Under the pieces are notes generated by a model. It was given only the letters and a program-made list of their open reading frames with translations, made no database searches and was not told the DNA's origin. A DNA stretch of 64,000 nucleotides from Pseudomonas sp. MM223 (GTDB lineage: Bacteria > Pseudomonadota > Gammaproteobacteria > Pseudomonadales > Pseudomonadaceae), in contig OX352322.1 in the NCBI GenBank assembly GCA_947090765.1, positions 477,501 to 541,500 on the forward strand. The letters run 5' to 3'. Within the stretch, counting starts at the first letter, position 1. Each line of letters starts with the position of its first letter. Shown piece by piece: positions 9,722 through 36,330 of this stretch. A program made the translations under genes and the position numbers.

Positions 9722-9728
9722 CCTGTCA

Positions 9729-9822: not shown

Positions 9823-9841
9823 CTGCAAAGCAGCCCCTGAT

Positions 9842-11665
9842 TCAGCCTTTCAACACCCGGCAATAGAATTTCCACTCTTCTTCCAGTGCATGCGCCAGGT
9901 TCTCCGCCTTGCGGAACCCATGCCGCTCCCCTGCATAGAAGTGCCCTTCAGCCTCGATCCCGTTAGCCTGCAATGCCGCCAGCATTGCGCGTGTCTGCTC
10001 CGGCACCACTACAGCATCCAGCTCACCCTGGAAGAAAATCACCGGCACCTTGATCTGTTCTGCATGCAGCAGCGGCGTACGCTGGCGATAGCGCTCGGCA
10101 TCCTGCTGCGGGTCGCCGATCAGCCAGTCCAGGTAGTCCCCTTCGAACTTGTGCGTGGCACGGCCCAGGGCAACCGGGTCGCTGACCCCGTACAGGCTGG
10201 CGCCGGCGCGGAACACGTCATGGAACGCCAAGGCGCACAGGGTGGTGTAGCCACCGGCGCTGCCGCCGCGGATAAACGCCTTGCGCTTGTCGACCAGGCC
10301 TTGAGCAGCCAGGTATTCAACCGCTGCGCAGGCATCCGCCACATCGCTTTCGCCCCAGCGCAGGTGCAGTGCCTGGCGGTATTCCCGGCCATAGCCGGTG
10401 CTGCCCCGGTAGTTCAGGTCGGCCACGGCAAAGCCGCGCTGGGTCCAGTACTGGATGCGTGGGTCAAGCACGGGGTAGCAGGCCGACGTCGGCCCACCGT
10501 GGATGAACACCACCAGTGGTGCGGCGCCTTTTGCCTGCGCTGGCGGGTAGAAGAAACCATGTGCCTGCTCGCCATCACTGCCATAGTGAATCGACTGCGG
10601 CAGGCTGATCTGCTCTGCCGGCAGTATCTCGGCACCACCGGCCACTACGCGTACCTCGTGGTTGATGCGGTCGATGGCAATCACTGCCGGCGGGCTGATG
10701 GGCGAGGCGGCAATGGCATACAGGTGCTCGCTGTCCATGGCCAGGCTGCGAAAGCGTGTGTAGGCACTGGCGAAACGCTCCATGCGGCCATCTTCATGAC
10801 GCAGCCCCAATTGCCCGAAGCCGTCTTTGAACCAGCTGGCCAGGTAGCCTTGCGGGCCCAGCGCCAACCAGGTGCAGGTGCCCAGTTGCCAAGGCGCGGC
10901 AGCATGGTCCGCTGGCCCGGCGGGCAGCGCCTGCCAGTGGCCATCCACTTCCCCCCAGGGCTGCCAGAAGCCATTGCGGTCGGACAGGCAGTAAAGCCGG
11001 CCTTCGGCATCGAAGCGTGGCTGTTGCAGCGATTCATCATCGCTGGCCACGCACTGCGCGGGCCCCCAATGGCCACTGCTGTCGCGTACGCGACACATCA
11101 AGCGGGTAATGGTCCAAGGCTGTGCCGGGCGGTCCCATTCTATCCATGCCAGGCGTTTGCCATCAGTACTTACAGTGGGTGAGGCATAGAAGTCGGCACC
11201 CTCGGCGAGCACCTCGCGGCTGCTTTCAGCCAAAGCGACCAGGCGATGCTCCACGTGCTCGCCATGGCGCTCCTCGACAGCCAGCACCTGGCCACCGTGC
11301 CACTGCACATCGCCGTAGCGGCAGCTGGCATCCTGGGTCAGCGCGCGCGGTTGCAAATCGTCCAGCGACTGGGTGTAGACCTGCTGGTCCTTTTCGTTGA
11401 CGAACACCAGCCCGTCGCCACCCAGGCAGAAGCTGCCCCCGCCATACTCGTAGACCCGGCTGCGCACGCTAAAACCATCCGGGGTCAGGCAGCGGGCCTG
11501 GTGGTACAGCCAGTGCCAGACACGGCAGGCACCGTCGGCCGGGCGAAATTCGACCCAGAATAGCCCGTCGGCACTGACCTTGAGTTCGGCAAAGTCGGTA
11601 CCGGCGGCAACCGCCTGGGCCGCGCTGAATTCAGCCGCGGGCGATGACACGGGAGTTTCGATCAT
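9842..11665 (-). CDS. pqqM: S9-family prolyl-oligopeptidase-like peptidase of the pqq operon
   Basis: A 607-residue serine peptidase: an N-terminal beta-propeller and a C-terminal alpha/beta-hydrolase domain. The nucleophile elbow GGSAGGY and the final catalytic histidine in ERHGF are visible, with the FIHGGPTS oxyanion region before them. It overlaps the 3' end of pqqE by 35 bases, so it is translated from the same message. A gene of this kind follows pqqE in several pseudomonads and is named pqqM; its role in PQQ formation is not settled. It could act on the PqqA-derived peptide or be a general peptidase. Confidence 0.9.
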
Positions 11666-14922: not shown

Positions 14923-14994
14923 TTAGCGGTTTGCGAAGTACATGGTGACTTCGAAGCCGATACGCAGGTCAGTGTAAGCAGGTTTGGTCCACAT
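14923..14994 (-). CDS. pqqA: PQQ precursor peptide PqqA
   Basis: A 23-residue ribosomal precursor of PQQ. The minus-strand frame reads [16 protein letters not shown] then TMYFANR; the Glu and Tyr of the E-V-T-M-Y motif are the two residues that become the cofactor. GGAAGGAG lies 7 bases before the ATG. It is the second gene of the pqqF-A-B-C-D-E-M cluster and has its own promoter region in the 172-bp gap after pqqF. Confidence 0.97.
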
Positions 14995-21028: not shown

Positions 21029-21583
21029 GTGAACCTCGACCTCCTGCTCGAATGCTGGCGACTGGAAGTCTCCAACAAGAAAAGGCCAAGACGCTGCATC
21101 AGCCTGCTGTTCAACGTGCTGCGCCGTGCACGCAAGGACAACAAGCTGCGCTTTCTTTTCGCCTTCCGCCTGGCCCAGTACCTCGACGCCCGCGGTGGCC
21201 TGGCCCGGCGTCACGCCCGGCGCATGCAGCAGCGGCTCAACCTCAAGTACGCGGTGGACATCGACATCGGCGCCCAGATCGCCCCCGGCCTGCGCATCGC
21301 GCACCTGCCGGGGGTGGTGATCACCCGGCACGTGAGCATCGGGCGCAATTTTTTCATCCGGCAAAACTGCTCGATCGGCATCAAGACCCTCGGGTTGGCG
21401 GAATACGCGTTGCGCATTGGCGACAATGTGAGCATGGGCGCCAACAGTTGCATCGTTTCTGACCGTATCGAGATTGGTGACGACGTGGTGATCGGCGCGA
21501 TGTCGCTGGTTACGCGGGATGTTCCGGCTGGAATGACCTTCTACAACCAGCGGCAGGTCGAGATGCAGCCGAGGGTGGGGTAG
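21029..21583 (+). CDS. Hexapeptide-repeat acetyltransferase (serine acetyltransferase-like)
   Basis: A 184-residue left-handed beta-helix protein. Hexapeptide repeats run from about residue 75 (VDIDIGAQIAPGLRIAHLPGVVI, HVSIGRNFFIRQNCSIGI) to DDVVIGAMSLVTRDVPAG, the usual C-terminal signature of the CysE/colanic-acid acetyltransferase group. The basic N-terminal helical part is short, unlike true CysE. Start is a GTG. Substrate unknown; an envelope sugar or an amino acid is possible. It is the last core gene before the island. Confidence 0.85.
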   Translation: MNLDLLLECWRLEVSNKKRPRRCISLLFNVLRRARKDNKLRFLFAFRLAQYLDARGGLARRHARRMQQRLNLKYAVDIDIGAQIAPGLRIAHLPGVVITRHVSIGRNFFIRQNCSIGIKTLGLAEYALRIGDNVSMGANSCIVSDRIEIGDDVVIGAMSLVTRDVPAGMTFYNQRQVEMQPRVG

Positions 21584-21642
21584 GGGCTGCTCACAGAATT
21601 TCACGACGAAGAAGCGAGCTTAACCACCTGATCGGCGGGCAT

Positions 21643-21672
21643 GAAAAAGCCGCGCTATTGCGCGGCTTTTTC
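21643..21672 (-). terminator. Displaced tRNA terminator at left island edge
   Basis: GAAAAAGCCGCGC-TATT-GCGCGGCTTTTTC is a perfect hairpin with A/T-rich arms, 6 bases outside the left 46-bp repeat. It is most simply the original terminator of the minus-strand tRNA, now 17.8 kb from it. Confidence 0.85.
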
Positions 21673-21677
21673 ATATC

Positions 21678-21723
21678 TGGTGGGCCCACACGGACTCGAA
21701 CCGTGGACCAAAGGATTATGAGT
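21678..21723. repeat. attL, 46-bp copy of the tRNA 3' half
   Basis: Identical to 39469-39514. It starts with tggtgggccc (CCA end of the minus-strand tRNA) and ends with ggattatgagt in the anticodon loop. The sequence diverges at once on both sides. It is the displaced original 3' end of the tRNA gene. Confidence 0.95.
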
Positions 21724-22350
21724 TGCTTGGCTAACCGACATGCCTAGCGAAACCACTCAAAGCTGAGCGTAGGTTAGCACAGCTGGAGGCCACGTAATAT
21801 GTGGTTTTGAGCGTAATCTTGAGAAGCTTGCCCAAGCTGGGCAGTGTACCTTGGCTGTACTGTCTCTGGCGGATGCTCGGTATAGGTATGCGTGCCTGGA
21901 GGCTCCACTGATCGCGGGCAGAGCCATTGTCTAGCATGCGAGCTGTATGATTTGCGTTAGCCGGCCGACGGATTGCAGATACGGCTGATAACAGTCGACC
22001 AGAGGCGGCCCGGTAAAGCGCTGACCAAATTAGGAGCGATCAAATCTTCCTGCGAATCTGAGAAAAAGCTGCCTATTGGAGAGCCCAGCTTCTGCTTGAG
22101 TGAGATAGCGACATTCACTGACCATGGAAGAGGTGGGCTACGTTTGTCGTCAAGGGTGAGTACTCCAAGGGCTCCCACGGTAGCTAATTTCGCAGATCAA
22201 TGCGGGCTACCTTCGAATGATCATCATAGGTAGCCACTAGTAAGCTTTCCCAGCGTGCTAACTGCTTTACCCCTCATCAGGTTGCCCTTTTCTAGTGGTC
22301 AGGCAGGGGTAGCCCCGTACCAGGGTCAGGTATTGCGCCCAGCTTTCTAG
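21724..22350. other. Left island arm with no convincing gene
   Basis: About 630 bases of lower G+C than the core. Short frames exist on both strands (for example a minus-strand stretch of 74 codons at 21957-22178), but none has a good ribosome site, recognisable motif or normal length. The last part is in frame with the nuclease-like fragment that follows after a stop at 22348. It looks like gene debris. Confidence 0.5.
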
Positions 22351-22374
22351 GCAGTAGAAGGCTTCACTTCCGAC

Positions 22375-22845
22375 GTGTTTGAGAATGTCGAGCGTGGAGC
22401 TAATTTATCAAATTTTGATTCAAGCGTGATTAATAAACAGCCAGATCTAGTGATACGTCTTGCCAATAGCCCGTTGGTAAATACTCGCCGTTACGTTGGT
22501 ATTTTTGCTGAAACTAAGGTGGTTTCGCAGAAAAAAGGGCTCACTAACTATACTAAGCAGGGGATTTCTAGGTTTGTACGCGGTGATTATGCATGGGCAA
22601 TGCAGGATGGGCTCATGATCGCATACCGGAAACAGCCACTCCGGAAGATTGATTCTCTGGAAGCGCCACTGAAGAGCGACTCAGCTTTGCTCGTAAGGCA
22701 GGAGAATGCGAAACATCTTGTTCAGTCGGGTCTACCCGTACCTGTCTGCGGTAAGAGCACTCATGATCGTCAGTGGGCCTACCAGGCTGGCGGAACACCT
22801 GGTGAGATCCGTCTATGGCATCTCTGGGCTTTTGACATACCTTAA
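22375..22845 (+). CDS. Hypothetical protein with PD-(D/E)XK-like pattern, probably a C-terminal fragment
   Basis: A 156-residue frame starting at a GTG; it is open a further 8 codons upstream to a stop, with no clear ribosome site, so the N-terminus is probably missing. Seen: PDLVIRL about residue 23, then GIFAETKVV about 20 residues on, which fits the spacing of a PD...ExK nuclease core, followed by YTKQGISRFVRGDYAWAMQDG and a C-terminal LWHLW. Function is not assigned by me with confidence; a restriction-like or repair-like nuclease fold is a guess from the motif. Base composition is lower in G+C than the core. Confidence 0.45.
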   Translation: MFENVERGANLSNFDSSVINKQPDLVIRLANSPLVNTRRYVGIFAETKVVSQKKGLTNYTKQGISRFVRGDYAWAMQDGLMIAYRKQPLRKIDSLEAPLKSDSALLVRQENAKHLVQSGLPVPVCGKSTHDRQWAYQAGGTPGEIRLWHLWAFDIP

Positions 22846-22919
22846 GTACTGGCTTAGGTTTCTTCTTCAGGCCCTGAATGACCGTCTGTTATTTCAGAAA
22901 TATTGTCGGAAAAGGAAGA

Positions 22920-22937
22920 GCCCCGGCAGGCCGAGGC
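22920..22937 (-). terminator. Hairpin after island pqqA
   Basis: On the minus strand GCCTCGG-CCTG-CCGGGGC is followed by TCTTCCTTTTCC. The stem is nearly the same as the one after chromosomal pqqA (GCCTCGG-CCCG-CCGGGGC), 20 bases past the stop codon. Confidence 0.7.
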
Positions 22938-22956
22938 GTGAAGTTTCAATAAATAT

Positions 22957-23028
22957 TTAGCGATTAGCGAAGTACATGGTGACTTCAAAGCCAATGCGCA
23001 GGTCAGTGAAGGCAGGTTTTGTCCACAT
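22957..23028 (-). CDS. pqqA2: Second PQQ precursor peptide PqqA (island copy)
   Basis: A 23-residue frame identical to chromosomal PqqA except Tyr7 to Phe: [16 protein letters not shown] then TMYFANR. The Glu and Tyr that become PQQ are kept. The DNA differs at several silent sites (for example aaa/acc, att/atc, ggc-ttt/ggc-ttc), so it is not a recent copy or an assembly artefact. AAGGAG lies 9 bases before the ATG. No pqqB-E follows; it would rely on the chromosomal enzymes 8 kb away. It is usually missed because of its size. Confidence 0.93.
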
Positions 23029-23100
23029 AACATGGCTCCTTTTGAAAAGTGGGACATCGTCTCACCCTATCAGTTGGGATGCATGTAGATAGGGTAGAAT

Positions 23101-23170
23101 TATCTTACAAGAAGACCGTTCGTCTAACCTTATCGTTTTTGGAGAAGGTCTTTTGCAAATGGCGTAACAA
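23101..23170 (-). promoter_or_regulatory. Upstream boxes of island pqqA
   Basis: TATCTTACAAGAA (23101-23113) and ATGGCGTAACAA (23159-23170) match the boxes before chromosomal pqqA in sequence, order and spacing. The IS5-family element begins 22 bases beyond the outer box, so the conserved region is just intact. Confidence 0.65.
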
Positions 23171-23192
23171 CTGTGGCTCGTTGGGAAGCTAG

Positions 23193-24360
23193 GGATGCTC
23201 CGATCAATTTGTCGTGCAGCCGCGGCAAGTTGCAATTTTCCAGGCACCTACAGCGTCATTGGACGAAAAGTGACCGAAAAATCATGTACGGAGAGCTTTT
23301 TCGACCGGTTCTCCGTGTTAAACGCGAACCTCACCCATACCCATGAGCTGTTTTCGAACCCTCCACAGGTTTGCCAGGGCGAACAGCGTGGTCAACTGAG
23401 CCGTGTTTTTCATCAGCCCACGAAAACGTACTTTCACGTAACCAAACTGCCGCTTGATCACGCGAAACGGATGCTCGACCTTGGCCCGTGTCTGAGCCTT
23501 GCAGAACTCGATCTTGCGCTTGGCTTTGTACAGTACGCTGCGCTGGTTCAGCTTGGAATAGGTGCTGCGACGCGCTGCAATCTGCCAGATCACCCCCCGA
23601 TTTTCATGCTCTTCGCGCCTTTCGACACCGGTGTAACCGGCATCTGCATACACGGCGTTTTCTTCGCCATGCAGCAGTTCAGCCACCTGCGTGACATCGG
23701 CCACATTGGCAGCGGTGCCATGGACGTGATGCACCAGGCCGGACTCGACATCGGCACCGATGTGCGCCTTCATCCCGAAGAAATACTGACCGCCTTTCTT
23801 GGTCTGGTGCATCTCGGGATCACGCTTGCCTTCTTTATTTTTGGTCGAGCTGGGGGCATGAATAATGGTGGCATCGACGATGGTGCCTTGGCGCAGCGGC
23901 AGGCCTTTTTCCTGCAGATAACCATTGATGACCGCAAGGATTGCCGGTGCGAGCTGATGCTTCTTCAGCAAGTGCCGGAAGTTCATGATCGTGGTGTCTT
24001 CGGGGATTGGCGCGCTCAGCGTCAGGCGTGCGAACTGGCGCATGGGCGTGATTTCGTAGAGCGCTACTTCCATGGCCGGGTCGCTCAGGGAGAACCAGTT
24101 CTGCAACAGATGGATGCGCAGCATGGTTTCCAGAGGATAGGGTTTTCTATCGCCGCCGGCCTTGGGGTAGAACGGTTCGATCAGCTCCAGCAGGCCTGCC
24201 CAGGGCACCACCTGATCCATTTCGGCGAGGAAGCGCTCTCGGCGGGTTTGCTTGCGCTTGCCGGCGTACTCAAAGTCGGAAAAGCTCATCTGGCTCATGG
24301 GCGGCTCGGATCAGGTGTTGAGGGGATTCTCGCATAACTGAAGGCTTGTTCGGAGACTCC
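23193..24360 (-). mobile_element. IS5-family insertion sequence, copy 1
   Basis: 1168 bp. Terminal inverted repeats GGATGCTCCGATCAA (left) and GGAGTCTCCGAACAA (right, reversed). It is flanked by a perfect 4-bp target duplication CTAG (23189-23192 and 24361-24364), matching the YTAR target preference of the IS5 group. It carries one transposase gene and is almost identical to copy 2 at 34117. Confidence 0.93.
23318..24298 (-). CDS. IS5-family transposase, copy 1
   Basis: A 326-residue DDE transposase of the IS5 group. Seen: the N-terminal [24 protein letters not shown], first catalytic Asp in [17 protein letters not shown], second Asp in YADAGYTG, and the Glu in the [14 protein letters not shown] (DDE/Y-R-E) region. 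Full length, so probably active. It differs from copy 2 in three residues (D/G in KAGGDRKPYP, K/E in HLLKKH, Q/R near the C-terminus). It is transcribed toward the island pqqA. Confidence 0.95.
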   Translation of the reverse strand: MSQMSFSDFEYAGKRKQTRRERFLAEMDQVVPWAGLLELIEPFYPKAGGDRKPYPLETMLRIHLLQNWFSLSDPAMEVALYEITPMRQFARLTLSAPIPEDTTIMNFRHLLKKHQLAPAILAVINGYLQEKGLPLRQGTIVDATIIHAPSSTKNKEGKRDPEMHQTKKGGQYFFGMKAHIGADVESGLVHHVHGTAANVADVTQVAELLHGEENAVYADAGYTGVERREEHENRGVIWQIAARRSTYSKLNQRSVLYKAKRKIEFCKAQTRAKVEHPFRVIKRQFGYVKVRFRGLMKNTAQLTTLFALANLWRVRKQLMGMGEVRV

Positions 24361-24364
24361 CTAG

Positions 24365-24751
24365 AGGTTGGCGTGCTGCGGGCATCGGTTTCATAGGGCA
24401 AGACTGATTGTTGCTGATTTGAAAAAAATCTTTTTCAATCGTCTGGATTTATTGGGGCGGCTGTTTTGGATTATTCTTCTAATGGCGTTAAACCATGGGT
24501 TATAGGTTTTAATGTAGGGCTTATACCGAGTTTATAGATTTTTCGTGTCAGCTGACTCACCTGATTTGTTCTGCGGCTAGTAGCGCTTAATCTGTATCGC
24601 TGACGCTTTACACGAAATCTATTGTTGGCGAAAACCTTCCAGAAGCTTCTGTTCGTACCCCCTGCCAAAACCAGCGGCCACCCTTTCCTTGGCTTGTTTG
24701 CTCGCACCCCTGAGGGAACAGCTATGTACTCACCAATTGAGCTTACACACT
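24365..24751. other. Gap between IS5 copy 1 and the quinoprotein gene
   Basis: About 390 bases, A/T-rich, without a credible gene. It presumably holds the dehydrogenase promoter; I see no clear -35/-10 pair or operator. No ribosome site stronger than ttgag precedes the ATG at 24752. Confidence 0.4.
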
Positions 24752-27186
24752 ATGACGGATGACAATTGCAGCAACGCTGGGAGGCGCTCATTAAGCGGTG
24801 CCGGGCGAATTCTTTTCTCGCTACTTGTAATGTGTGTAGCGCTGGCATTGATTTATGGCGGTGCCAAGCTTCTGGCCTTGGGCGGTTCAAGTTATTACTT
24901 GCTGGCAGGGCTGGCTTACGTCGTGCTGGCTGTACTCGCATTCTTGCGCAAGAAAGTCAGTATTGTACTTTCCATTCTGATATTTCTTGCCACTTGCGGC
25001 TGGGCTTTTTACGAAGTTGGCCAGTTCAGTTACTGGCAATTGCTGCCTCGCCTGGTTGTTCCAGCCATCATCCTGACCCTGAGCCTGTGGGTCGGGCTGC
25101 GCTACCCGATACCGCGTCGGGCACACGTCGAGCCGCCAATCGCGCCGGGTTTGCTGTGTTCCTGGCCTTGATCGCCACGTTCATCGCGGCCTTCTTCCCG
25201 CATGGCGTGATCTCCAAACCGATTGCAGCTGGTAGCCAGGCAATCCCGGATGCAACCGCTGAGGCCCCGGAGAACTGGGAGTTCTTCGGGCGCAACGCTT
25301 CGGGAACGCGCTTTGCCCCCTACACACAAATTACCCCGGAAAACGTTAAGGATCTGCAAGTTGCCTGGACCTACCGGACCGGTCGTAGAACTACCGGCCC
25401 AGGTGCCGGCGTCGACGAGAACACGCCGTTGCAGATTGGCAACGTGCTCTACTCGTGCACTCCGGAAAACCTGATCACCGCGCTGGATGGCGACAGCGGC
25501 AAACCGCTCTGGAAGTTCGATCCGCACGCTAAGAGCGCCGAGCACGTGACCTGTCGAGGTGTGGGCTATTACGACATCGACCGCGACGACAGCCTGAGCG
25601 CCGAGGCCAAGGCCTCGCATGCCAGCGAACAGCAATGTCGCCAGCGCATTCTGGTGTCGTCGGTGGATGCCCGCTTGTTTGCTCTGGACGCACACACTGG
25701 CAACCTGTGCCCTAACTTTGGCGAGCAAGGTTTCGTTGACCTCAAGAAAGGCATGGGACCAACGGAAAACAGCAAGCGCTACCACCCGACATCGCTGCCG
25801 GTCGTCATGGGCCACCTCACGGTGGTGGGTGGTTGGGTACGTGACATCGTGGCCGGCGAGCCTTCCGGTGCCGTACGTGCATTCGATGTGCTGACCGGTG
25901 CGCTGGTATGGGCGTGGGATGTCGGCGCGCCCGAGGGCACCGACACAGCGGCGGCTGACCATCAGTTCGCGCTGGAAACACCTAACGTATGGACCGTTCC
26001 TACCTACGATAAGGAATTGAACCTGGTCTACCTGCCAACCGGTAACGGCCCGCCTGACTATTGGGGTGGCGACCGGAATCAGGTGAAGGAGAAGTTCGGC
26101 ACAGCGATTGTCGCGGTCGACGCGTCGACGGGTAAGGCGAAGTGGGTTTACCAGACTGTCCATCATGATGTCTGGGACTACGACCTGCCGTCGCAACCCG
26201 TGCTCTACGAAATGAACAATGCGCAAGGGGTGAAGACCCCGGTGCTGATTCAGACCACCAAGACCGGCAATATCTTCGTACTGGACCGCCGTACTGGTCA
26301 GCCCGTCACAGAAGTCCAGGAACGCCCTGTTCCCACCTCACCGGCTGCAGAAGGCGAACACCTTTCGCCAACCCAACCGTTCTCGACCGGCATGCCGGTG
26401 ATTGGTGCGGACCCACTGACCGAGCAATCGATGTGGGGGGTATCCACCTTCGACCAACTCTACTGCCGCATCATGTTCAAGGACTCGGTATACGTCGGCC
26501 CGTTCACACCGCCCACCGAGAAGCCGTACATTGAATGGCCCGGGCTGCTGGGTGGCATGAACTGGGGTGGTATTTCTATCGATGAAAACACCGGCATGAT
26601 GTTCGTCAACGACATGCGCATGCCGTTGCGCATGTCGCTGGTAACCCAGGAAAACACCCGCAAGTACAAAGTCTCGACCGATGAAGTGCCTGGTTTCATG
26701 GGCACCATTCGCCCGCAGGTTGCAGGTATCTATGGCGGCGTGAAGATCGACATTCTCCAGTCGCCGCTGGGCGTGCCATGCAATACCCCACCGTTTGGCA
26801 GCATGAGCGCGATCGACCTGAATACCCAGAAGCTGGTATGGCAGGTGCCACTGGGCACGGTTCAGGATACTGGCCCCCTGGGGATCAAGACGCATATGCA
26901 GATCCCGCTGGGTATGCCGACGCTGGGTGGCCCGACCTCGACGGCATCCGGCCTGGTGTTCTTCGCTGGCACTCAGGACTACTACCTGCGTGCACTCGAC
27001 TCGAAAACCGGCAAGGAAGTCTGGAAGGCCCGCTTGCCAGTGGGCGCCGTGGCGGCCCCGCTGATCTACAAGTCGCCCGCCACCGGCAAACAGTACGTGG
27101 TGATCTCCGCTGGCGGTATGAGCCACTCGCCAGATGTGGGCGACTACATCATCGCGTACGCGCTGCCTGACAGCAGCAAGCTGTAA
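24752..27186 (+). pseudogene. Membrane PQQ-dependent dehydrogenase (glucose/quinate/shikimate family), frameshifted
   Basis: Quinoprotein that oxidises a polyol or sugar in the periplasm and passes electrons to ubiquinone. Residues 1 to ~125 (MTDDNCSNAGRRSLSG..., with four membrane helices such as ILFSLLVMCVALALIYGGAKLL) are in one frame; the fifth helix (AGFAVFLALIATFIAAFFP) and the whole beta-propeller are in another, the switch lying at about 25105-25135. Active-site patterns are kept: AEHVTCRGVGYYD, VHHDVWDYDLPSQP and TTKTGNIFVLDRRTG with the lysine that contacts PQQ. Repaired length is about 811 residues, normal. Followed by an OprB-type porin, as in quinate dehydrogenase loci; substrate is undecided. 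The shift may be real decay or an assembly error. Confidence 0.85.
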
Positions 27187-27206
27187 CGCTTCGTTGATGC
27201 GCTGAG

Positions 27207-27232
27207 ACAAATCCCCGTTCGCGGGGATTTGT
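27207..27232 (+). terminator. Hairpin between dehydrogenase and porin
   Basis: ACAAATCCCCG-TTC-GCGGGGATTTGT is a perfect 11-bp stem followed by CTTGTC, 20 bases past the dehydrogenase stop. The T run is weak, so it may be partial. Confidence 0.75.
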
Positions 27233-27300
27233 CTTGTCAGTCGGCCCGCTCGCAAGCCTGGGCTGTGCAACGATTTCTCATGCTAGGGGGCCTGCCCACC

Positions 27301-28593
27301 ATGTCATTACCACTCAGCACCGTGCTGGCCCGTAGCCTGTGCTGCGGCTTATCTCTGTGTTTATTGCCCCTGCCTTGCGCACTGGCAGGCACTGCCAGCC
27401 TGATGACGCAACCTACGCTCACTGGCAACTGGGGCGGCCAGCGCCAGAAGATGGAAGAGCAAGGCATAAAGCTGACGGGTGACTACACCTCGGAAACGCT
27501 TTCCAACCTGAATGGCGGCATCAAACGTGGCACCCGCTATGCACAACAGATACGTCTGGGCGCGCAGTTTGACTTGAGCAAACTGCTCGACATTCCAGAT
27601 GCAGGTCGCGTGCAGGTGCTGGTCAATGACCGTCGCGGCCACAGTGCCACCGAAGACCTGATTGGCAACCGCATGTCCGCGCAAGAAATCTATGGGGGCG
27701 AGTACACCCGGCTGACGGAGTTGAGTTACCAGCGCAATCTGTTCTCCCCGGATCTGTCCGCCAAGGTTGGCTACATGGTCATGGGTACCGAGTTTGGTGG
27801 CATGCCGATCCTGGCCAACTTTGTCAGCGCCGGCTTTTGTGCCCACCCGTTGACCATGTCCAGCGGCAGTGGCTGGGGTAACTATCCGACAGCCCATTGG
27901 GGGGGCGAGTTGCGTTATGACGTCAACCCGTCGCTGACGCTGCAAACGGCGCTGTTCCAAGTCAACCCGGAGTACAACGCGCGCGTATCCAAAGCCTTCG
28001 CCATGCCCAGCAATGGTACGACGGGGGCCATCATGCCGCTGGAGGCGATCATCAATAGCCGCGCTTTCCTGAACGGGCAGTACAAGGTGGGCTGGTACTA
28101 CGACACCTCCGATTACCCCAAGATTGGCGGTACCGGTATAAGCAGCAGTCGTACCGGCGCTTACTTGCTGGTAGACCAGGCGATCTGGCGCGATGAGCAA
28201 GACCCTGCCAGTGCCCTAAGGTTGTTCGGGCAAGCTGCCACCAGTAACGCTGCGACCTCACCAATGCGTCGCTGGTACTCAATGGGCCTAGTTAGGCAAA
28301 AGCCGTTTGATAGCCGCCCTCAAGACTCCATTTCCTTTGGCTATGGCCGCGCCGTGATCAACCCGCGTACCCGCGATGTGCAGGAAGCCGCTGCAGTCGG
28401 TGCAGAGCAATATGCCATGTTCAGTGGCCTGGATAGCGGCGAGCAAGTGCTGGAGCTGAACTACGGTGCGCAAGTGACCCCCTGGTTACTGCTGCGCCCT
28501 GACGTGCAGTACTACATCGAGCCTGGTGCATTCTTTGGAAAGCAAAGAGGAAACGCGCTGGCGGTTGGGTTGCAAGTAAAAATGATGCTTTAA
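27301..28593 (+). CDS. OprB-family carbohydrate-selective porin
   Basis: A 430-residue outer-membrane porin for uptake of neutral sugars or polyols. From the ATG at 27301 (AGGGGG 10 bases upstream) there is a signal peptide MSLPLSTVLARSLCCGLSLC...CALA, then LTGNWGGQRQKMEEQGIKL, the classic N-terminal OprB motif, many alternating beta-strands, and a C-terminal aromatic/hydrophobic strand ending VGLQVKMML. It follows the quinoprotein gene on the same strand, so the pair would bring in a substrate and oxidise it in the periplasm. The gene ends 8 bp before an IS3-family end. Confidence 0.92.
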   Translation: MSLPLSTVLARSLCCGLSLCLLPLPCALAGTASLMTQPTLTGNWGGQRQKMEEQGIKLTGDYTSETLSNLNGGIKRGTRYAQQIRLGAQFDLSKLLDIPDAGRVQVLVNDRRGHSATEDLIGNRMSAQEIYGGEYTRLTELSYQRNLFSPDLSAKVGYMVMGTEFGGMPILANFVSAGFCAHPLTMSSGSGWGNYPTAHWGGELRYDVNPSLTLQTALFQVNPEYNARVSKAFAMPSNGTTGAIMPLEAIINSRAFLNGQYKVGWYYDTSDYPKIGGTGISSSRTGAYLLVDQAIWRDEQDPASALRLFGQAATSNAATSPMRRWYSMGLVRQKPFDSRPQDSISFGYGRAVINPRTRDVQEAAAVGAEQYAMFSGLDSGEQVLELNYGAQVTPWLLLRPDVQYYIEPGAFFGKQRGNALAVGLQVKMML

Positions 28594-28619
28594 TGGCTTT
28601 CTGAATCGCCCCTGCTTTC

Positions 28620-29501
28620 CTAGACACTCTCCAAGCTCAGGAAATAGCGTTTCTCATACTCTACTGGAGACAGCTGCATAGCACTGCTGTGTCGACGCTT
28701 AGGGTTATAGAACATTTCGATGTAATCGAAAATATCACTTCGGGCTTCGTCACGCGTTGCGTAGATCTTTCGTCGGATTCGCTCCCGCTTCAAAAGCTGG
28801 AAAAAGCTCTCCGCTACGGCATTGTCGTGGCAGTTTCCCCGTCGGCTCATGCTGCTGATCACATTATTGGCCTTCAGGAAGCTTTGCCAATCTGAGCTAC
28901 TGAACTGACTGCCTTGGTCTGAGTGAATCATCACTTGCTGCTGTGGCTTGCGTCGCCACACGGCCATCAGCATGGCGTCGATGGCCAGGTCGCTGCTCAT
29001 TCTGGGCTTCATTGACCAACCAATGACTTGGCGGGAGAACAGATCCAGCACTACCGCCAGGTACAGCCACCCTTCATAGGTGCGGATGTAGGTGATATCG
29101 GTCACCCAGACTTTATTCGTCTCACTGACCTTGAACTGCCGGGCCAGATGGTTGGGGGATGCCACTGTTGGTTGTCCGCCATAAAACCCAGTACGACGGC
29201 GATAGCCCGTTTGCGAACGCAGCCCCTCTGCCTGCATCAAGCGACCGACTCGATTTTGCCCACAGATCTCTCCTAGCTCTCGCAGGTCATCGTGAATCTT
29301 GCGATAGCCATACACGCCGCCGCTTTCTAACCAGGCCTGCTTGATCAAGCCAAGCAGGCGCTGATCTTCTTTGGCTCGGGCAGATTGAGGTTCGGCCAAC
29401 CAAGCGTAGTAGCCGCTGGGATGCACCTTGAGGGTTTGGCAAAGGCGCCGCACCGGGTAATGCGTCGAGTGCTTTTTGATGAAGGCGTACTTCAGTTGCA
29501 C
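28620..29501 (-). CDS. IS3-family transposase OrfB
   Basis: A 293-residue rve-type integrase domain protein. The HTH_21 region (VYGYRKIHDDL) is followed by the DDE core: Asp in WVTDITYI, Asp in MIHSDQGSQFSS, and Glu in GNCHDNAVAESFFQLLKRE. It overlaps orfA by 10 bases in the -1 frame, so the active enzyme is the OrfAB fusion. Confidence 0.95.
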   Translation of the reverse strand: MQLKYAFIKKHSTHYPVRRLCQTLKVHPSGYYAWLAEPQSARAKEDQRLLGLIKQAWLESGGVYGYRKIHDDLRELGEICGQNRVGRLMQAEGLRSQTGYRRRTGFYGGQPTVASPNHLARQFKVSETNKVWVTDITYIRTYEGWLYLAVVLDLFSRQVIGWSMKPRMSSDLAIDAMLMAVWRRKPQQQVMIHSDQGSQFSSSDWQSFLKANNVISSMSRRGNCHDNAVAESFFQLLKRERIRRKIYATRDEARSDIFDYIEMFYNPKRRHSSAMQLSPVEYEKRYFLSLESV

Positions 29502-29770
29502 TCCTTGGCAAAGTACGCGGCGGCCTTTTTTAAGATGTCTCGCTCTTCAGTCACGCGCTTGAGTTCTGCGCGAAGCTTGCGCAGTTCGGCTTGCTGCTCA
29601 TCGTCTTGCTGACGCTGCTCTTGGGGTTTGCTGTAGAGCTTGATCCAGGCGTAGAGGCTGTGAACAGACATGCCCAGGCGCTGGGCAACATCGGCGACAG
29701 GATTGCCTTTCTCGGTCACTTGCTTGACCGCTTCGATCTTGAATTCTTCGGGGTAACGCTGACGACTCAT
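29492..29770 (-). CDS. IS3-family OrfA
   Basis: A 92-residue helix-turn-helix protein (RYPEEFKIEAVKQVTEKGNPVADVAQRLGMS) with a C-terminal leucine-zipper-like coil (LRKLRAELKRVTEERDILKKA). The run TTAAAAAAGG on the coding strand near the end is the usual A6G slippery site for -1 frameshifting into orfB. Confidence 0.93.
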   Translation of the reverse strand: MSRQRYPEEFKIEAVKQVTEKGNPVADVAQRLGMSVHSLYAWIKLYSKPQEQRQQDDEQQAELRKLRAELKRVTEERDILKKAAAYFAKECN

Positions 29771-29876
29771 GGCACCTCCTATTTGGGCCTCATTATGAGG
29801 CTTGGAGGTGTCTACGAAACCAGGGGCGATTCAGTGCTGGGATGGCTAGGTAGATGGTCAATGATCTTTTCATGGG

Positions 29877-30065
29877 TCACCATTTCCTATCGTCGCTTTG
29901 GGTGTTTTTATGCCCAAGGACGCAAGCGTCGTAGCTATTTGTTTGAGAAATAGCTGGTCCTGGCGTCGATGTATCGCACTCAATGGGGGTAGGATTTTCT
30001 GGCGCTTCACAGCCGTTGAGCAGCAGTGCGCTCAGAATCAGGAACCGTTTAAGTTGTGCGTGCAT
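29877..30065 (-). CDS. trbK: TrbK-like entry-exclusion lipoprotein
   Basis: A 62-residue protein with a lipoprotein signal (MHAQLKRFLILSALLLNGC, lipobox LLNGC) and a short polar C-terminal part containing two more cysteines. It starts 10 bases after the trbJ stop, exactly where trbK lies in IncP-type trb operons; in that family TrbK blocks entry of related elements. The trbK call rests on position, size and lipobox, since TrbK sequences vary greatly. The next gene, trbL, is missing; an IS3 element follows after 43 bp. Confidence 0.7.
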   Translation of the reverse strand: MHAQLKRFLILSALLLNGCEAPENPTPIECDTSTPGPAISQTNSYDACVLGHKNTQSDDRKW

Positions 30066-30075
30066 GCTTTTTTCC

Positions 30076-30244
30076 TCACCAGCCCTTATCAGCGCTTGGG
30101 CTGTTTCGGCTACTCAAGGCTCGTTTGTCAGCTGCGGTGTGTTGAGCGTCGCGATCAACACGGACTTGAGCGCTTGTAGCCTGGGCGTTTTGCTGAGCAA
30201 TCAGCAAGCTGCGAATTTGCAGCAACTGATTTGCCTGTGCGCTA
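30076..30244 (-). pseudogene. trbJ: trbJ, C-terminal piece
   Basis: The frame reads SAQANQLLQIRSLLIAQQNAQ then ATSAQVRVDRDAQHTAAD and ends SADKGW, the typical TrbJ C-terminus. It has no start codon. The N-terminal piece lies at 35285-35874 on the same strand. Joining GCTAG from that piece to the C following TAG here gives GCT AGC GCA (A-S-A) in frame, so the two were one gene. Confidence 0.88.
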
Positions 30245-30263
30245 ATTCGCCCAGTCTAGGGGG

Positions 30264-30533
30264 CTATAGATCGCCAGTCATCAGTAGCTCTCTCAGTATG
30301 CTGAGATTTTTCCTGATTTCAGCTTCTACCTTTCCAGAATAATCAAGTGCCTCAAGCGTATTCTTTGTTTGGTTCATTGCCTCTGCTATTATATCAATGG
30401 CAGTTTTTCTTGATGCTGCCATATTTTCTAGAGTCTGTTCCCCTGCATTTAGCATTGTTACGATATCTTGTTTGCTTAACTTATCATAATTCACGTTACG
30501 GAGTTGCTCTAGTATTAACTCTTGATCCGACAT
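30264..30533 (-). CDS. Small helical protein of unknown function
   Basis: An 89-residue acidic protein with GAGG 8 bases before its ATG, so it is likely translated. It is predicted to be almost all helical (ELILEQLRNVNYDKLSKQDIVTMLNAGEQ, then KTAIDIIAEAMNQTKNTLEAL), without signal peptide or membrane segment. No family recognised. It lies 250 bp downstream of the GGDEF-EAL gene in the inserted segment. Low G+C. Confidence 0.65.
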   Translation of the reverse strand: MSDQELILEQLRNVNYDKLSKQDIVTMLNAGEQTLENMAASRKTAIDIIAEAMNQTKNTLEALDYSGKVEAEIRKNLSILRELLMTGDL

Positions 30534-30783
30534 ATATGATCCTCTTTATTATTATCGATTTGTTGTTTATGATAATATTAATTATTTCATTGTTCCAGAA
30601 AAAAACAGCTGGGATAGTGTATCATAAAAAATATATTTCGAGCGAATGGGGAAAGTCGGTCGAGCCATGCGCATAACCAATCCATGGCATTGGACGCACA
30701 GTATATCGTTACCGGTGGATAAATGAATTAACCGCTCAATCCACTAGGTTGCGACGACGCAATCAGTTCGTGGACGGTGCGGT

Positions 30784-32475
30784 TTATCTATTACCCCCTC
30801 TAGATAAATGAGCAGGGACAAACTTCGCCACCCAAGATAGCACTTTTTCTACCGGCATGGGTTTCGCAATACCATAGCCTTGCGCTACATCACAACCTAG
30901 GTTCATCAGCAACACTTCGTGCTCAACCGTTTCCACCCCTTCAGCAATAACCTCGCGGTTAAACGATTTCGCTAGGCCGATGATCGCCTTAGTCAGCCCC
31001 AATCTGTCTTTATCGATGAGTATGTCGCGTATAAAAGATTTGTCTATCTTGATTGACTGCGTGGGCAGTTGTTTAAGGTAGCTCAGCGATGAATACCCGG
31101 TTCCAAAGTCGTCCAACGAAAATGTCACACCCAGATCCTGGCAAGCAATGAGGCACTGAGTGACATGTGGTAAGTGTTCTATCGCCACTGATTCGGTAAT
31201 CTCAATATCCAACATCTGCGGCAAAACATTAGGGTGGCTGTCCAGCAAAAACTTTAGGGACTTTACAAAGTTTTCTTTTTTCAAATGTAATGCTGCAATG
31301 TTTACACTCACAGACCACGAATGACCCAAGTCCGCCCATTGTTCTATTTGACTGAGCGCCTGATCTATGACCCACTCGCCGATCTCCACGATCAGATCGC
31401 TCTGCTCAATCAACGGTATAAAATACTGCGGTAATATAAGTCCATCTCGCGGATGCTGCCAACGCAATAGTGCTTCAAAACCAATCACTGCCCCACTGCT
31501 CAAACTTATTTTTGGTTGATAATGCAAGCATAACTCACCATCATGTAACGCTTGGCGAACCCGTATTACGGTATCAAAAGCTGATTTATCCATCTTATCT
31601 TTTGATACATCAAACAAATGGAAACAGTTACGGCCACTTTGTTTGGCCTTATACATAGCCTGATCGGCATGACGTAGCAGTGTATCGGCATTCTCATTAT
31701 CGTTTGGATAGAGCGTCACACCGATACTGGCGGAAATATTAATGCCTATGCCATCGATGATGTAGACCGCGGAAAGGGCAGCTAAAAGCCTCTGCAGGGC
31801 GCTTTCCAACACCTTGGGATCCCGCACACCCAAAATCAGCACGAACTCATCGCCTCCCAAACGGGCTACGGTATCTTCGATACGCATACTATGTTTCAGG
31901 CGATCAGCCACCGCCACTAACAGACGATCACCTATCTCGTGGCCATAGCGGTCGTTAATCTGCTTAAACCCATCGAGATCAAGCACGCCCACGGCAACCG
32001 TGCTGGGCTGGCTCTTTGCTTTGACAATAGCCTGATCAAGCGCTTTGGACAGCAAAAAACGATTTGGAAGACCCGTCAGCTCGTCGTGCTCAGCCTGCCA
32101 TTGCAAGGTTTCCAGAAACTTCCGCTTTTCGGTCACATCGAAACGAATGGAAACGTATTTCTGCACCCGCTGGCTGGCATCATCGTACATGGGTACAATG
32201 GTGCTCTCTACCCAATACAGGCTGCCATCCTTTTTACGGTTGCAAATTTCACCTTTCCATACCTGCCCACGTGAAACTTTTTTCCACATATCAATAAAGA
32301 ACTCAGGGGGATGCTGCCCTGAGTTTAGTATGCGGTGGTTTTGCCCAATCAACTCCTGTGCGCTATAGCCAGAAATATCACAGAACTGTTCATTGACATA
32401 GGTGATTATTCCGGATTTATCGGTTTCCGAGAAAATAGCTGCCGCATCCACCGCTGCACGGTATCTCGCACTCAT
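30784..32475 (-). CDS. PAS-GGDEF-EAL cyclic-di-GMP protein
   Basis: A 563-residue cytoplasmic protein. A PAS domain (about residues 10-120: GIITYVNEQFCDISGYSAQELIG, WKGEICNRKKDGSLYWVE) is followed by a GGDEF domain with intact GGDEF and an RxxD inhibitory site just before it (RIEDTVARLGGDEF), then an EAL domain with EALLRW, the DDFGTGYSSLSYL loop and IAEGVE. Both synthase and phosphodiesterase sites look complete, so it may be bifunctional. It starts 36 bases after the Aer-like gene and its PAS strongly resembles that protein's PAS; both may sense redox state through a flavin. Confidence 0.93.
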   Translation of the reverse strand: MSARYRAAVDAAAIFSETDKSGIITYVNEQFCDISGYSAQELIGQNHRILNSGQHPPEFFIDMWKKVSRGQVWKGEICNRKKDGSLYWVESTIVPMYDDASQRVQKYVSIRFDVTEKRKFLETLQWQAEHDELTGLPNRFLLSKALDQAIVKAKSQPSTVAVGVLDLDGFKQINDRYGHEIGDRLLVAVADRLKHSMRIEDTVARLGGDEFVLILGVRDPKVLESALQRLLAALSAVYIIDGIGINISASIGVTLYPNDNENADTLLRHADQAMYKAKQSGRNCFHLFDVSKDKMDKSAFDTVIRVRQALHDGELCLHYQPKISLSSGAVIGFEALLRWQHPRDGLILPQYFIPLIEQSDLIVEIGEWVIDQALSQIEQWADLGHSWSVSVNIAALHLKKENFVKSLKFLLDSHPNVLPQMLDIEITESVAIEHLPHVTQCLIACQDLGVTFSLDDFGTGYSSLSYLKQLPTQSIKIDKSFIRDILIDKDRLGLTKAIIGLAKSFNREVIAEGVETVEHEVLLMNLGCDVAQGYGIAKPMPVEKVLSWVAKFVPAHLSRGGNR

Positions 32476-32511
32476 ATATAAACCTAATTCACCAAAATAG
32501 TCATAAGGTCA

Positions 32512-34077
32512 CTACCTGTTGAACCGTTCAACCAACGAGTTTAAACCACGGGATGTACTTTCAAGTTCGCGGCCACGAATCACGGCGGAGTTAGCATTCT
32601 TCGCTGTTCTCTCAACCGTTCCCGCTACGTTATTAATCTGCCGAGCAATATCTTCAGCGACACTAGCCTGCTCTTCTGAAGCGGCTGCCATTTGCTGGCT
32701 CATACCACTGATCCGTTCAACAGCATCGCGAATGCCTTGGAGAGCACACTGCGCCTCTATAACTTGCTGTACACCGTGGTCGGCCTCGCGAATACCGAGT
32801 TTGGCAATGCTCACAGCCTCATCTGCGCCTTTTTTAAGGGTTTCAATGACGTTTTGAATTTGTTGAGTCGATACGCGGGTTTTAGCGGCCAAGGCCCGGA
32901 CTTCATCAGCTACTACCGCAAAACCACGACCCTGCTCACCAGCCCTAGCCGCTTCAATTGCAGCGTTGAGAGCGAGTAGGTTGGTTTGATCAGCAATGGC
33001 TTGAATCACCCCCGCAGCAGCCATAATTTGCTGGGTTTCATTGGCAAGGTAATCCACAGCAGTGCTGATATTCGTGACGGTACTGGCCAGCAACTGAATG
33101 GCCTCACGGGAAGTACCGGCGACTTTATCACCTTGTTCAGCCAGTTCATTTGCTGCTTGCGCTTCCATGGCGGTTTTTTGAACATGCCCTGCCACTTCGT
33201 TGATTGAGGCCGCCATCTCCGTCATGGCGGCTGCCGTCATGTCCGTTTCCGCTCGCTGCTCCAGCAAGGCATTTTCAGTTTGGTTCGAGATTAAGGAGGA
33301 ATGCGCAGCGGCTTCAGCCACTTGGCTGGCCAGATCGCTTAGCCGAGTCAGTGCGGTTTTAAGGCGTGCATCCTCACTAATCAATATCATTTCCAACTGC
33401 GCTGAAGGGCCATACGTATCGCTGTAAGTGATGGCGCTAATCGGATCTGAAAAAGCGTCAGGGGCGCATTTCATGATATGACTCAACTGATGTTCCAGCC
33501 GCGTATAGGACCACCATCCTGTAACGAGAAAGAGCACGGCAGTTACCGCTTGTGCTGCCAGGCTTGGCAGCACGCTAGCCGCACCTATTGCCAACGCAGC
33601 CGCAGTTGCAGGTAAGACCATCCTCCTCATGAATGCCGCATAATGACGATTTTGGGGAATGGAATTTTTACCTGCACGCAACCGGTCATACAGCTTTTGT
33701 GCGCGATCAATTTGCTCCCGAGTCGGCTTGACTCTAACGGACTCGTAGCCTGTTAAGCGGCCATCTTCGAGAATAGGTGTCACATACGCACTGACCCAAT
33801 AGAAGTCACCATTCTTGCAGCGATTCTTGATGATACCCATCCAGCTTTTGCCAGCCTTCAGATAGCCCCACATCAGCCCGAAAACAGCTGGAGGCATGTC
33901 GGGATGACGAACCAAATTGTGCGGACTGCCCAACAACTCTTCACGAGAATAGCCACTTATTCTCATAAACTCGTCATTCACATAGGAAATATTCCCATTC
34001 GTATCCGTAGCAGAGATCAATCGCTGCTGGACTGGAAATATTTGTTCAACGGTTGTGACAGGCAGGTTCGAGCGCAA
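32512..34077 (-). CDS. Aer-like PAS chemoreceptor (methyl-accepting protein)
   Basis: A 521-residue energy-taxis-type receptor. An N-terminal PAS domain ([52 protein letters not shown]) is followed by a paired hydrophobic segment near residues 155-195 ([22 protein letters not shown] ... [12 protein letters not shown]) and a long signalling coiled coil with the hairpin tip [23 protein letters not shown]. There is no periplasmic domain, as in Aer. Start is a TTG with GGAG upstream. It forms a probable operon with the GGDEF-EAL gene, linking taxis and c-di-GMP. Confidence 0.92.
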
Positions 34078-34116
34078 GATGAGTCTCCATGAGCAATAAT
34101 GTCATTATGCCATAAT

Positions 34117-35284
34117 GGATGCTCCGATCAACTTGTCGTGCAGCCGCGGCAAGTTGCAATTTTCCAGGCACCTACAGCGTCATTGGACGAAAAGTGACCG
34201 AAAAATCATGTACGGAGAGCTTTTTCGACCGGTTCTCCGTGTTAAACGCGAACCTCACCCATACCCATGAGCCGTTTTCGAACCCTCCACAGGTTTGCCA
34301 GGGCGAACAGCGTGGTCAACTGAGCCGTGTTTTTCATCAGCCCACGAAAACGTACTTTCACGTAACCAAACTGCCGCTTGATCACGCGAAACGGATGCTC
34401 GACCTTGGCCCGTGTCTGAGCCTTGCAGAACTCGATCTTGCGCTTGGCTTTGTACAGTACGCTGCGCTGGTTCAGCTTGGAATAGGTGCTGCGACGCGCT
34501 GCAATCTGCCAGATCACCCCCCGATTTTCATGCTCTTCGCGCCTTTCGACACCGGTGTAACCGGCATCTGCATACACGGCGTTTTCTTCGCCATGCAGCA
34601 GTTCAGCCACCTGCGTGACATCGGCCACATTGGCAGCGGTGCCATGGACGTGATGCACCAGGCCGGACTCGACATCGGCACCGATGTGCGCCTTCATCCC
34701 GAAGAAATACTGACCGCCTTTCTTGGTCTGGTGCATCTCGGGATCACGCTTGCCTTCTTTATTTTTGGTCGAGCTGGGGGCATGAATAATGGTGGCATCG
34801 ACGATGGTGCCTTGGCGCAGCGGCAGGCCTTTTTCCTGCAGATAACCATTGATGACCGCAAGGATTGCCGGTGCGAGCTGATGCTTCTCCAGCAAGTGCC
34901 GGAAGTTCATGATCGTGGTGTCTTCGGGGATTGGCGCGCTCAGCGTCAGGCGTGCGAACTGGCGCATGGGCGTGATTTCGTAGAGCGCTACTTCCATGGC
35001 CGGGTCGCTCAGGGAGAACCAGTTCTGCAACAGATGGATGCGCAGCATGGTTTCCAGAGGATAGGGTTTTCTACCGCCGCCGGCCTTGGGGTAGAACGGT
35101 TCGATCAGCTCCAGCAGGCCTGCCCAGGGCACCACCTGATCCATTTCGGCGAGGAAGCGCTCTCGGCGGGTTTGCTTGCGCTTGCCGGCGTACTCAAAGT
35201 CGGAAAAGCTCATCTGGCTCATGGGCGGCTCGGATCAGGTGTTGCGGGGATTCTCGCATAACTGAAGGCTTGTTCGGAGATTCC
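34117..35284 (-). mobile_element. IS5-family insertion sequence, copy 2
   Basis: 1168 bp, nearly identical to copy 1 with a handful of base differences. Left end GGATGCTCCGATCAA, right end GGAATCTCCGAACAA (reversed). Its right flank is CTAG but its left flank is TAAT, so the copy has lost the matched target duplication seen around copy 1. Confidence 0.92.
34242..35222 (-). CDS. IS5-family transposase, copy 2
   Basis: A 326-residue DDE transposase with the same catalytic residues as copy 1 ([24 protein letters not shown]). Three residue differences from copy 1 show the copies have been apart for some time or came separately. Intact, so probably able to act in trans on both copies. Confidence 0.95.
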
Positions 35285-35874
35285 CTAGCAAGCTGATTGG
35301 CGGCCTGGATGGCTTGCATCTGGCCTTCCGCGCTGGTGGCCTGTCGCTGAAGTCCAGCGAGTTCACCAGCGTCTTTGCGCAATGTTTCCTGTTGTTTTGA
35401 GACGCTGGTAAGCAGGGCATCATTCGCACGCTTCTTTGTGGAGCTGGCCTCTTTCTGGGCTTGTGCAATGGCTTGTTGATCCGATACACCGCACGCGTCC
35501 GAGCCTATGCAAGGTGCGCTTTCGTAGTGGGCTGTATCCTGGTAACGCTCAAGATATTTCTGCAGGCTGCCAGCTTGGGTCTTGTAGTAGCTGAGCGTGT
35601 CCTGAGCAGCGAGAAGCATAGAAATCGTCTCATCGGCCTGACTCCAGATGTAGTCTGCTGGAGCCGCTGAGTTTCGCAGCATGATCTGGTACTGCTGCAA
35701 TTGGGTTTTGTACTGCTCGATCTGCTTCGTCACCGCAGCGACATTTTGAATCGCGCTGACAGTCGTCTGGCTCAGATTCACTCCATCCACAACAGGGATT
35801 CCGGCGAATGCAAGGTGAAAGGGCAGGGCGCTGGCTACCGCGAAAATCCACTGCTGTTTCTTCGATTTTTTCAT
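35285..35874 (-). pseudogene. trbJ: trbJ, N-terminal piece
   Basis: TrbJ is a periplasmic VirB5-like component of IncP-type mating pair formation. GGAG stands 5 bases before the ATG; a signal peptide follows (MKKSKKQQWIFAVASALPFHLAFAG), then IPVVDGVNLSQTTVSAIQNV and long coils (VTKQIEQYKTQLQQYQIML), typical of the family. The true sequence stops at QAANQLA; after that the frame runs on into the IS5 element. The missing C-terminus is at 30076-30244. It lies 37 bases after traJ. Confidence 0.92.
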
Positions 35875-35902
35875 AGGGACTCCAGAGGTGAAGGCTCGAT
35901 TT

Positions 35903-36286: not shown

Positions 36287-36330
36287 GGTCTGACCTCTCT
36301 TTGGTGTTCACAGAGTCGCGGCAGCGACTG

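Follow-up and report, generated by a model that had tools for sequence, protein, structure and literature searches.

The tRNA-Met element and its pqqA gene

The window, that is, the whole 64-kb stretch of Pseudomonas sp. MM223 DNA that we analyzed, contains a 17.8-kb element at a tRNA-Met gene, which is bounded by 46-bp perfect direct repeats that duplicate the end of the tRNA gene on its 3′ side and encodes an integrase. The intact tRNA-Met gene occupies 39469–39545 on the minus strand (att repeat, 39469–39514), and the gene for the tyrosine integrase of the element lies beside it at 38266–39378, also on the minus strand (PF00589, 106 bits). A repeat search located the outer att repeat, in which the same 46 bp of the tRNA-Met gene recur, at 21678–21723 (minus strand). 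ARAGORN called a tRNA-Met at 21678–21754 that Rfam did not, and because the Rfam match is missing, this call probably represents no working gene. The two marks of a tRNA-borne integrative element, an integrase next to the tRNA gene and repeats of its 3′ end at both ends, were both found. Together with a GC content of 52.8%, compared with 62.1% elsewhere in the window, these features bear out the earlier note on this DNA, which had placed a pqqA gene in an island here. A NikA-like gene (35912–36286) and a traJ-II RNA (36329–36430), spanning 35912–36430 on the minus strand, look like mobilisation remnants; plasmids with matches to this region carry genes named trbJ and traJ. No match to pqqB, pqqC, pqqD, pqqE, pqqF, ercA or aldehyde dehydrogenase was detected anywhere in the element at an E-value of 1e-3.

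We inspected the tRNA-Met site in nine chosen other genomes. Five carried the 46 bp once together with a complete tRNA-Met; one (L385) carried the tRNA-Met and lacked the exact 46 bp; two (L383 and L386) carried the 46 bp with no complete tRNA within the fetched stretch. In the ninth (L387; G081, 706–11254), the 46 bp occurred twice, 10.5 kb apart, at the same tRNA-Met, along with an integrase 90% identical to that of the window. Because the same repeats and so similar an integrase recur at the same tRNA, the element is real and of a site-specific kind. The 10.5-kb element of L387 contains neither a pqqA-like peptide nor the island dehydrogenase described below. A search of 38 relatives with the integration-site DNA matched only the window itself.

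The island pqqA (22957–23028, minus strand), identified by PF08042, TIGR02107 and codon comparison, is a complete gene of 23 codons plus stop, at the coordinates that the earlier note had given; its sequence and its strand were confirmed. Its product scored 46.4 bits against PF08042 (cut-off, 21.1) and 49 bits against the NCBIfam profile TIGR02107 (cut-off, 20). A degenerate pqqA pattern matched the 64-kb window exactly twice, at 14968 and 23002, both on the minus strand, while 100 shuffles of the window gave a mean expectation of 0.00 matches; the shuffles and the profile scores rule out a pattern artefact or chance match. The other match is the host operon pqqA (14923–14994, minus strand), with pqqF upstream and pqqB to pqqE downstream; the distance of about 8 kb noted previously measured 8.0 kb. 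The two genes differ at eight of 72 bases, seven differences being silent and one causing the replacement Y7F, much as had been described. Since eight random changes in pqqA altered one amino acid or none in only 2 of 20,000 simulations, this excess of silent differences indicates that selection acted after the island and operon copies parted, and part of the excess may stem from an ancestor still inside an operon. The E-x-x-x-Y spacing is present in the island peptide (E15-V-T-M-Y19), and both E15 and Y19, from which PQQ is formed, are intact. A review likewise describes a conserved Glu and Tyr in PqqA (PMC12997753). The sequence of all 23 residues, F7 included, recurs at loci of 48 other genomes among the matches listed, as counted by eye; Y7F is common in the genus and nothing special.

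Upstream of the gene, sequence reading identified a good ribosome-binding site, AAAAGGAG, at 23036–23043 (minus strand), 7 nt ahead of the ATG. Sequence comparison further identified two boxes on the same strand: CTTGTAAGATA at 23101–23111, which is common to the operon pqqA promoter and within which TAAGAT looks −10-like, and the distal box GTTGTTACGCCATTTGCAAAAGAC at 23148–23171, whose first part is common to the operon promoter. GTTACG lies at −140 at the island pqqA and at −158 at the operon pqqA, and TTGTAAGAT at −82 and −101, respectively, so the upstream boxes reported to resemble those of the chromosomal gene were both recovered. The claim of an identical downstream hairpin held only in part. 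The hairpin 3′ of the island pqqA (22920–22937, minus strand) keeps the core of the operon pqqA–pqqB spacer hairpin and is terminator-like in a simple scan, but it is a short version, with seven pairs and −12.9 kcal/mol vs 10 pairs and −21.1 kcal/mol. Matches between the island and operon pqqA copies stop near this hairpin.

On its upstream side, pqqA is followed by an IS5-family insertion (23193–24360, minus strand; transposase, 23318–24298, NF033581, 353.5 bits) with CTAG at both edges (23189–23192 and 24361–24364). Beyond it lie, on the plus strand, a gene for a membrane-bound PQQ-dependent dehydrogenase of the glucose/quinate/shikimate type (24752–27186; PF01011, 711 bits) and a gene for an OprB-type carbohydrate porin (27229–28593; PF04966, 299 bits). 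The dehydrogenase gene is interrupted in this assembly, and the frame scored against TIGR03074, which starts out of frame, reached 825.4 bits against a cut-off of 832.65. Intact relatives exist, and that in L011 (a record under the name P. luteola NBRC 103146), 95% identical at the DNA level, is a single open frame of 845 aa. L011 has no IS at the corresponding junction; its sequence runs across the CTAG into 45 bp like the pqqA side (34/45 identical, distal pqqA box included; score, 35, whereas 500 single-base shuffles reached 27 at most), but L011 has no pqqA. Because CTAG flanks the IS5 copy and the IS-free L011 continues across CTAG, the reconstruction places pqqA and the dehydrogenase gene about 0.55 kb apart and divergent before the insertion. 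Contrary to what had been thought, the pqqA gene is thus not alone in the island: once the IS5 copy is discounted, the dehydrogenase and OprB genes adjoin it. A second IS5-family copy, 99.5% identical, lies at 34117–35284; its edges are unlike (TAAT and CTAG), which suggests a rearrangement or deletion alongside.

We surveyed 398 Pseudomonas genomes for this dehydrogenase, scoring up to three candidates per genome, so that more copies may exist than the 17 found at 88% identity or higher in 16 genomes; the next lower identity was 52%. None of the 16 other copies had an orphan pqqA within the at least 6.6 kb examined on each side, nor did any of the seven named loci L011–L017, a set that shares at least L012 and L016 with the 16. 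These overlapping sets do not support a fixed travelling pair of pqqA and dehydrogenase. In eight upstream regions of other dehydrogenase copies, including two from a single locus, nothing matched the pqqA side of the island better than shuffled sequence did. Two of the 16 copies (L246 and L247) adjoin the host pqq operon at the same tRNA-Met site. At that site (window positions 21583–39469), a dehydrogenase–OprB pair is found in three other genomes, L012 (the same locus as L246), L013 and L247, in either orientation and with no match to the integrase of the window; this site beside the pqq operon is a recurrent landing site.

Extra pqqA copies in the genome and in the genus

The MM223 genome encodes three pqqA genes, at C1:492426 (operon), C1:500460 (island) and C1:3879600, and the island copy is therefore not simply a second one, as it had been called. 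The third (C1:3879600–3879668; L003, L245) carries a AAGTAGCATTCG box and belongs to a ped/exa-type cluster: it lies between an ErcA-like gene and an ExaC-like aldehyde dehydrogenase gene (named from their top NCBIfam matches, which fell short of the cut-off in the scanned pieces), with a PQQ alcohol dehydrogenase match 2.0 kb away. The ErcA-like gene (L003, 433–505) is seemingly frame-broken.

In the host operon, pqqF, pqqC, pqqD and pqqE each scored above the NCBIfam cut-off, as did pqqB, scored as the larger piece of its broken frame. Comparison with L012 and L013, which covered some 22 kb, revealed broken frames in pqqB (at about 14.65 kb), in the island dehydrogenase gene (about 25.1 kb) and in a 660-residue gene (about 47.1 kb). 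Given several frame breaks within so short a stretch, they are perhaps assembly indels. The broken pqqB is the sole pqqB match in the genome, and a review states that PQQ is no longer synthesized when any pqq gene other than pqqG is disrupted (PMC12997753). A genuine break would thus be expected to leave the host without PQQ, and no copy of pqqA could then help. Elsewhere in the window, the RsmY small RNA lies at 6849–6975 (118 bits).

Across the genus, 360 of the 398 genomes had a pqqA match, and 152 had at least two by our reading of the match table by eye: 141 had two and 11, including MM223, had three or more. A Pseudomonas strain with two pqqA copies is already in print (PMC10467086). For closer study we fetched 115 pqqA regions from 80 genomes, a chosen and not a random sample. 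It was drawn from 26 genomes, of which 19 were fetched and most had been selected because they had at least three copies or F7, from the next 60 two-copy genomes in order of listing and from the third copy of MM223; copies plainly resembling an operon copy were often left out. Within this sample, 62 copies had pqqB, pqqC or pqqE within 2.5 kb, and the other 53 were orphans. A PQQ-dehydrogenase match lay no more than 6.6 kb from 44 of the 53 orphans, and ercA was near 47, such that all 53 were near one or the other; the nine orphans with no dehydrogenase match comprised four cut by a contig end and five that were not. By arithmetic (five genes in 6.7 Mb, seven matches having been merged), a random point would fall within 6.6 kb of a PQQ-dehydrogenase gene about 1% of the time.

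Promoter sequence sets the island copy apart from these orphans. The AAGTAGCATTCG box occurred at 37 of the 53 other orphans and the operon box TTGTAAGAT at none. The latter is the mark of a single lineage among the operon promoters, because it was found at only seven of the 62 operon-type copies. We also searched for CTTGTAAGATA ahead of a pqqA, as the exact pattern CTTGTAAGATA, AGGAG, ATGTGGAC at fixed spacings, allowing no mismatch. Fifty of the 398 genomes had this pattern; 49 carried it once, and only MM223 carried it twice, at the operon and at the island. Since this genome alone has the operon promoter pattern twice, the island pqqA appears to be an operon-derived orphan, of which no other example was found among the 398 genomes. 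An extra pqqA is usual in the genus; the lineage and setting of this one are unusual.

Several sources were rejected. That the island gene recently arose by duplication from the pqqA of its host is contradicted by an identity of only 79% over 134 bp and by a better match elsewhere, the operon copy of L092 (83% over 126 bp; the best DNA match in other genomes). Descent from a ped/exa-type orphan is ruled out by the operon-type promoter boxes. No plasmid or phage source was found among the records examined: three plasmids had full pqqA to pqqE, six of seven phages encoded another peptide type, and one phage record looked bacterial.

Possible function of the island pqqA

We favor, at a probability of roughly 0.53, the explanation that the island gene is a functional accessory pqqA, derived from an operon, which uses the host PQQ enzymes and helps to charge the island dehydrogenase; the broken pqqB lowers our confidence in it slightly. 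The gene would descend from a P. putida-type pqq operon, promoter and attenuator hairpin included, and would now travel on the tRNA-Met integrative element beside the PQQ glucose-type dehydrogenase and OprB porin genes. Its peptide would be cross-linked by host PqqE with PqqD, trimmed by PqqF or PqqG, and finished by PqqB and PqqC, all of them host enzymes. Because the promoter is operon-type, transcription of the island pqqA would be switched on together with that of the host pqq operon, and the extra precursor would raise PQQ and charge extra apo-dehydrogenase in the periplasm, to the benefit of the element. The common boxes suggest the same control for both genes. A review describes the pqq operon as sharing its regulation with the ped cluster, AgmR being the likely regulator, and as induced by glucose and volatile organic compounds (PMC12997753); the available text of that review gives no AgmR binding motif, and binding of AgmR to the shared boxes is our guess.

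Counting for an accessory role are the predominance of silent differences (seven of eight), the operon boxes and hairpin core, the lack of pqqB to pqqF in the element with host pqqB (frame-broken) to pqqF next door, the integrase, att repeats and low GC of the element with its counterpart in L387, the spacing of about 0.55 kb to the dehydrogenase gene before the IS5 insertion, and the position of the sampled genus orphans by PQQ genes, 44 of 53 by a dehydrogenase and all 53 by that or ercA. On balance, the island pqqA is real and intact, and it is probably functional. The original proposal of a mobile element that supplies only the precursor and borrows PqqB to PqqF agrees with the missing pqqB to pqqF, the intact coding sequence and the operon-type promoter, but "only" has to be given up, as the element also brings a PQQ dehydrogenase and a porin. 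Counting against an accessory role are the 0 of 16 paired dehydrogenase copies and 0 of seven named loci, the lack of pqqA in L011 despite the 45 bp that it shares, the eight upstream regions without a match, the broken dehydrogenase and pqqB frames and the weaker hairpin.

These same observations give some room to another explanation, less probable in our judgment, that a fragment of a pqq operon recombined onto the element and has hitchhiked there as a relic, intact because it is short, with nothing selectable about it. Such a relic would fit the absence of the pairing at all 16 other dehydrogenase copies, the shortened hairpin near which the operon-copy matches stop, the IS insertions around pqqA, the broken dehydrogenase and pqqB frames, and the finding of an operon-type second copy in only one of 398 genomes. 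However, the gene retains its start and stop codons, its ribosome site and the two boxes, and at 11% divergence (8/72) a neutral copy should show more amino-acid changes than the single one seen, which so few of the simulations matched.

Alternatively, the gene could be a plain copy-number backup that adds to the precursor dose for all host quinoproteins, its place by the dehydrogenase being accidental. More than one pqqA is present in 152 of 398 genomes, the promoter is operon-type and not the island's own, and the pairing with the dehydrogenase does not recur. We nevertheless consider a backup unlikely, since the sampled orphans are not scattered, each of the 53 sitting by a PQQ-dehydrogenase match or ercA, and since the dehydrogenase gene stood about 0.55 kb from pqqA before the IS arrived. 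A peptide with some role other than PQQ precursor, for example in metal handling, as the involvement of PqqA in lanthanide uptake suggested for Methylorubrum (PMC11317620) might prompt one to consider, is very improbable for a product nearly identical to the operon precursor, with the Glu and Tyr from which PQQ is made still in place.

If the accessory role that we favor were true, a gene of 72 bases would let a mobile element alter the cofactor supply of its host, and with it the capacity for periplasmic sugar oxidation and the output of gluconic acid. This raises the question of whether PqqA is limiting in Pseudomonas and is exploited by mobile elements. More tentatively still, the island might be a plug-in of apo-enzyme, substrate porin and cofactor peptide that leaves maturation entirely to the host. 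Taken with the many viral contigs that have a lone pqqA, PqqA might then be carried again and again by mobile elements of unrelated kinds, the supply of precursor and not that of enzyme being what limits the cofactor.

Relation to known orphan, plasmid and viral pqqA genes

The nearest counterparts are the ped/exa orphans, in which ercA, pqqA, an exaC-type aldehyde dehydrogenase gene and a PQQ alcohol dehydrogenase gene lie together. Like the island copy, they are extra pqqA genes by PQQ-enzyme genes and away from pqqB to pqqE. They usually carry the AAGTAGCATTCG box, whereas the island copy has operon boxes, an integrative element around it and a glucose-type dehydrogenase gene beside it. With those boxes and with no ercA or aldehyde dehydrogenase match in the element, the gene falls outside the ped/exa class; with no pqqB, pqqC, pqqD, pqqE or pqqF there, it falls outside the pqq operon as well.

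Extra pqqA genes away from pqqB to pqqE also occur in methylotrophs, such as pqqA2 and pqqA3 of Methylorubrum extorquens, and Methylovorus MP688 and the producer strain FJNU-6 have five pqqA copies each; some extra methylotroph copies are transcribed and regulated (PMC11317620, PMC9851590). Unlike for the island copy, the available text of these papers mentions for them neither an integrative element nor a glucose dehydrogenase gene as neighbor. In Methylorubrum, expression of the orphans pqqA2 and pqqA3 changed (PMC11317620). As cited in the same paper, PqqA availability is rate-determining for PQQ in the five-copy Methylovorus, and M. extorquens AM1 was reported to make PQQ even without pqqA, in work that had not examined the orphan copies; PQQ output may therefore still depend on PqqA dose.

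On plasmids, pqqA has been found in fuller company. A pqqA match was present in 47 plasmid records, and the three examined, all Acinetobacter plasmids, carry full pqqA to pqqE, while the island has pqqA only. These three (L161, L162 and L163; 18 to 197 kb) have whole pqqABCDE followed by a dipeptidase gene. Many plasmid records name pqqA, so the statement that the gene is too short for standard gene callers does not apply in general.

Mobile entities bearing pqqA include the Lake Baikal virus VP_266, whose PqqA was linked with methanol dehydrogenase by its authors (PMC7678222). This PqqA differs from the island peptide in being viral and methanol-linked, and the viral peptides examined are of another type, mostly ending RFGFEVTMYVMNK or -VCNK. 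We found pqqA matches in 12 phage records, and six of the seven examined had such another type. The seventh, L167 (CAKLQF020000010.1, filed as Acinetobacter phage MD-2021a), looks like bacterial DNA over 12 kb, with genes from pqqB to a PqqE-like radical SAM protein, polyphosphate kinase and fur; the phage collection may thus hold host DNA. The Pseudomonas-type pattern IGFEVTMYF had no match in viral contigs. The main text of papers on such phages, so far as available, contains no mention of a phage pqq gene, and in a search that covered few subscription journals, no title or abstract start dealt with an integrative element that carries an orphan pqqA.

At least 120 stretches of IMG/VR viral contigs matched a lone pqqA. 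In 79 of the 80 examined (L262–L341), the match was a PqqA-like peptide of 23–25 residues with a Met-Trp or Met-X-Trp start and a ribosome-site-like motif ahead, the 80th having another start; none of the 80 stretches (0.70 Mb) had a match to pqqB to pqqF or a PQQ dehydrogenase at an E-value of 1e-6 with Pseudomonas references. Counts of pqqA that depend on annotation may be too low, for example where the gene is unmarked in phage records. In Venkman, P19250A, MEP301, MEP402, Melnitz-1 and ctXG6705 (L164, L165, L166, L168, L169 and L170), pqqA is present with no pqqA feature annotated.
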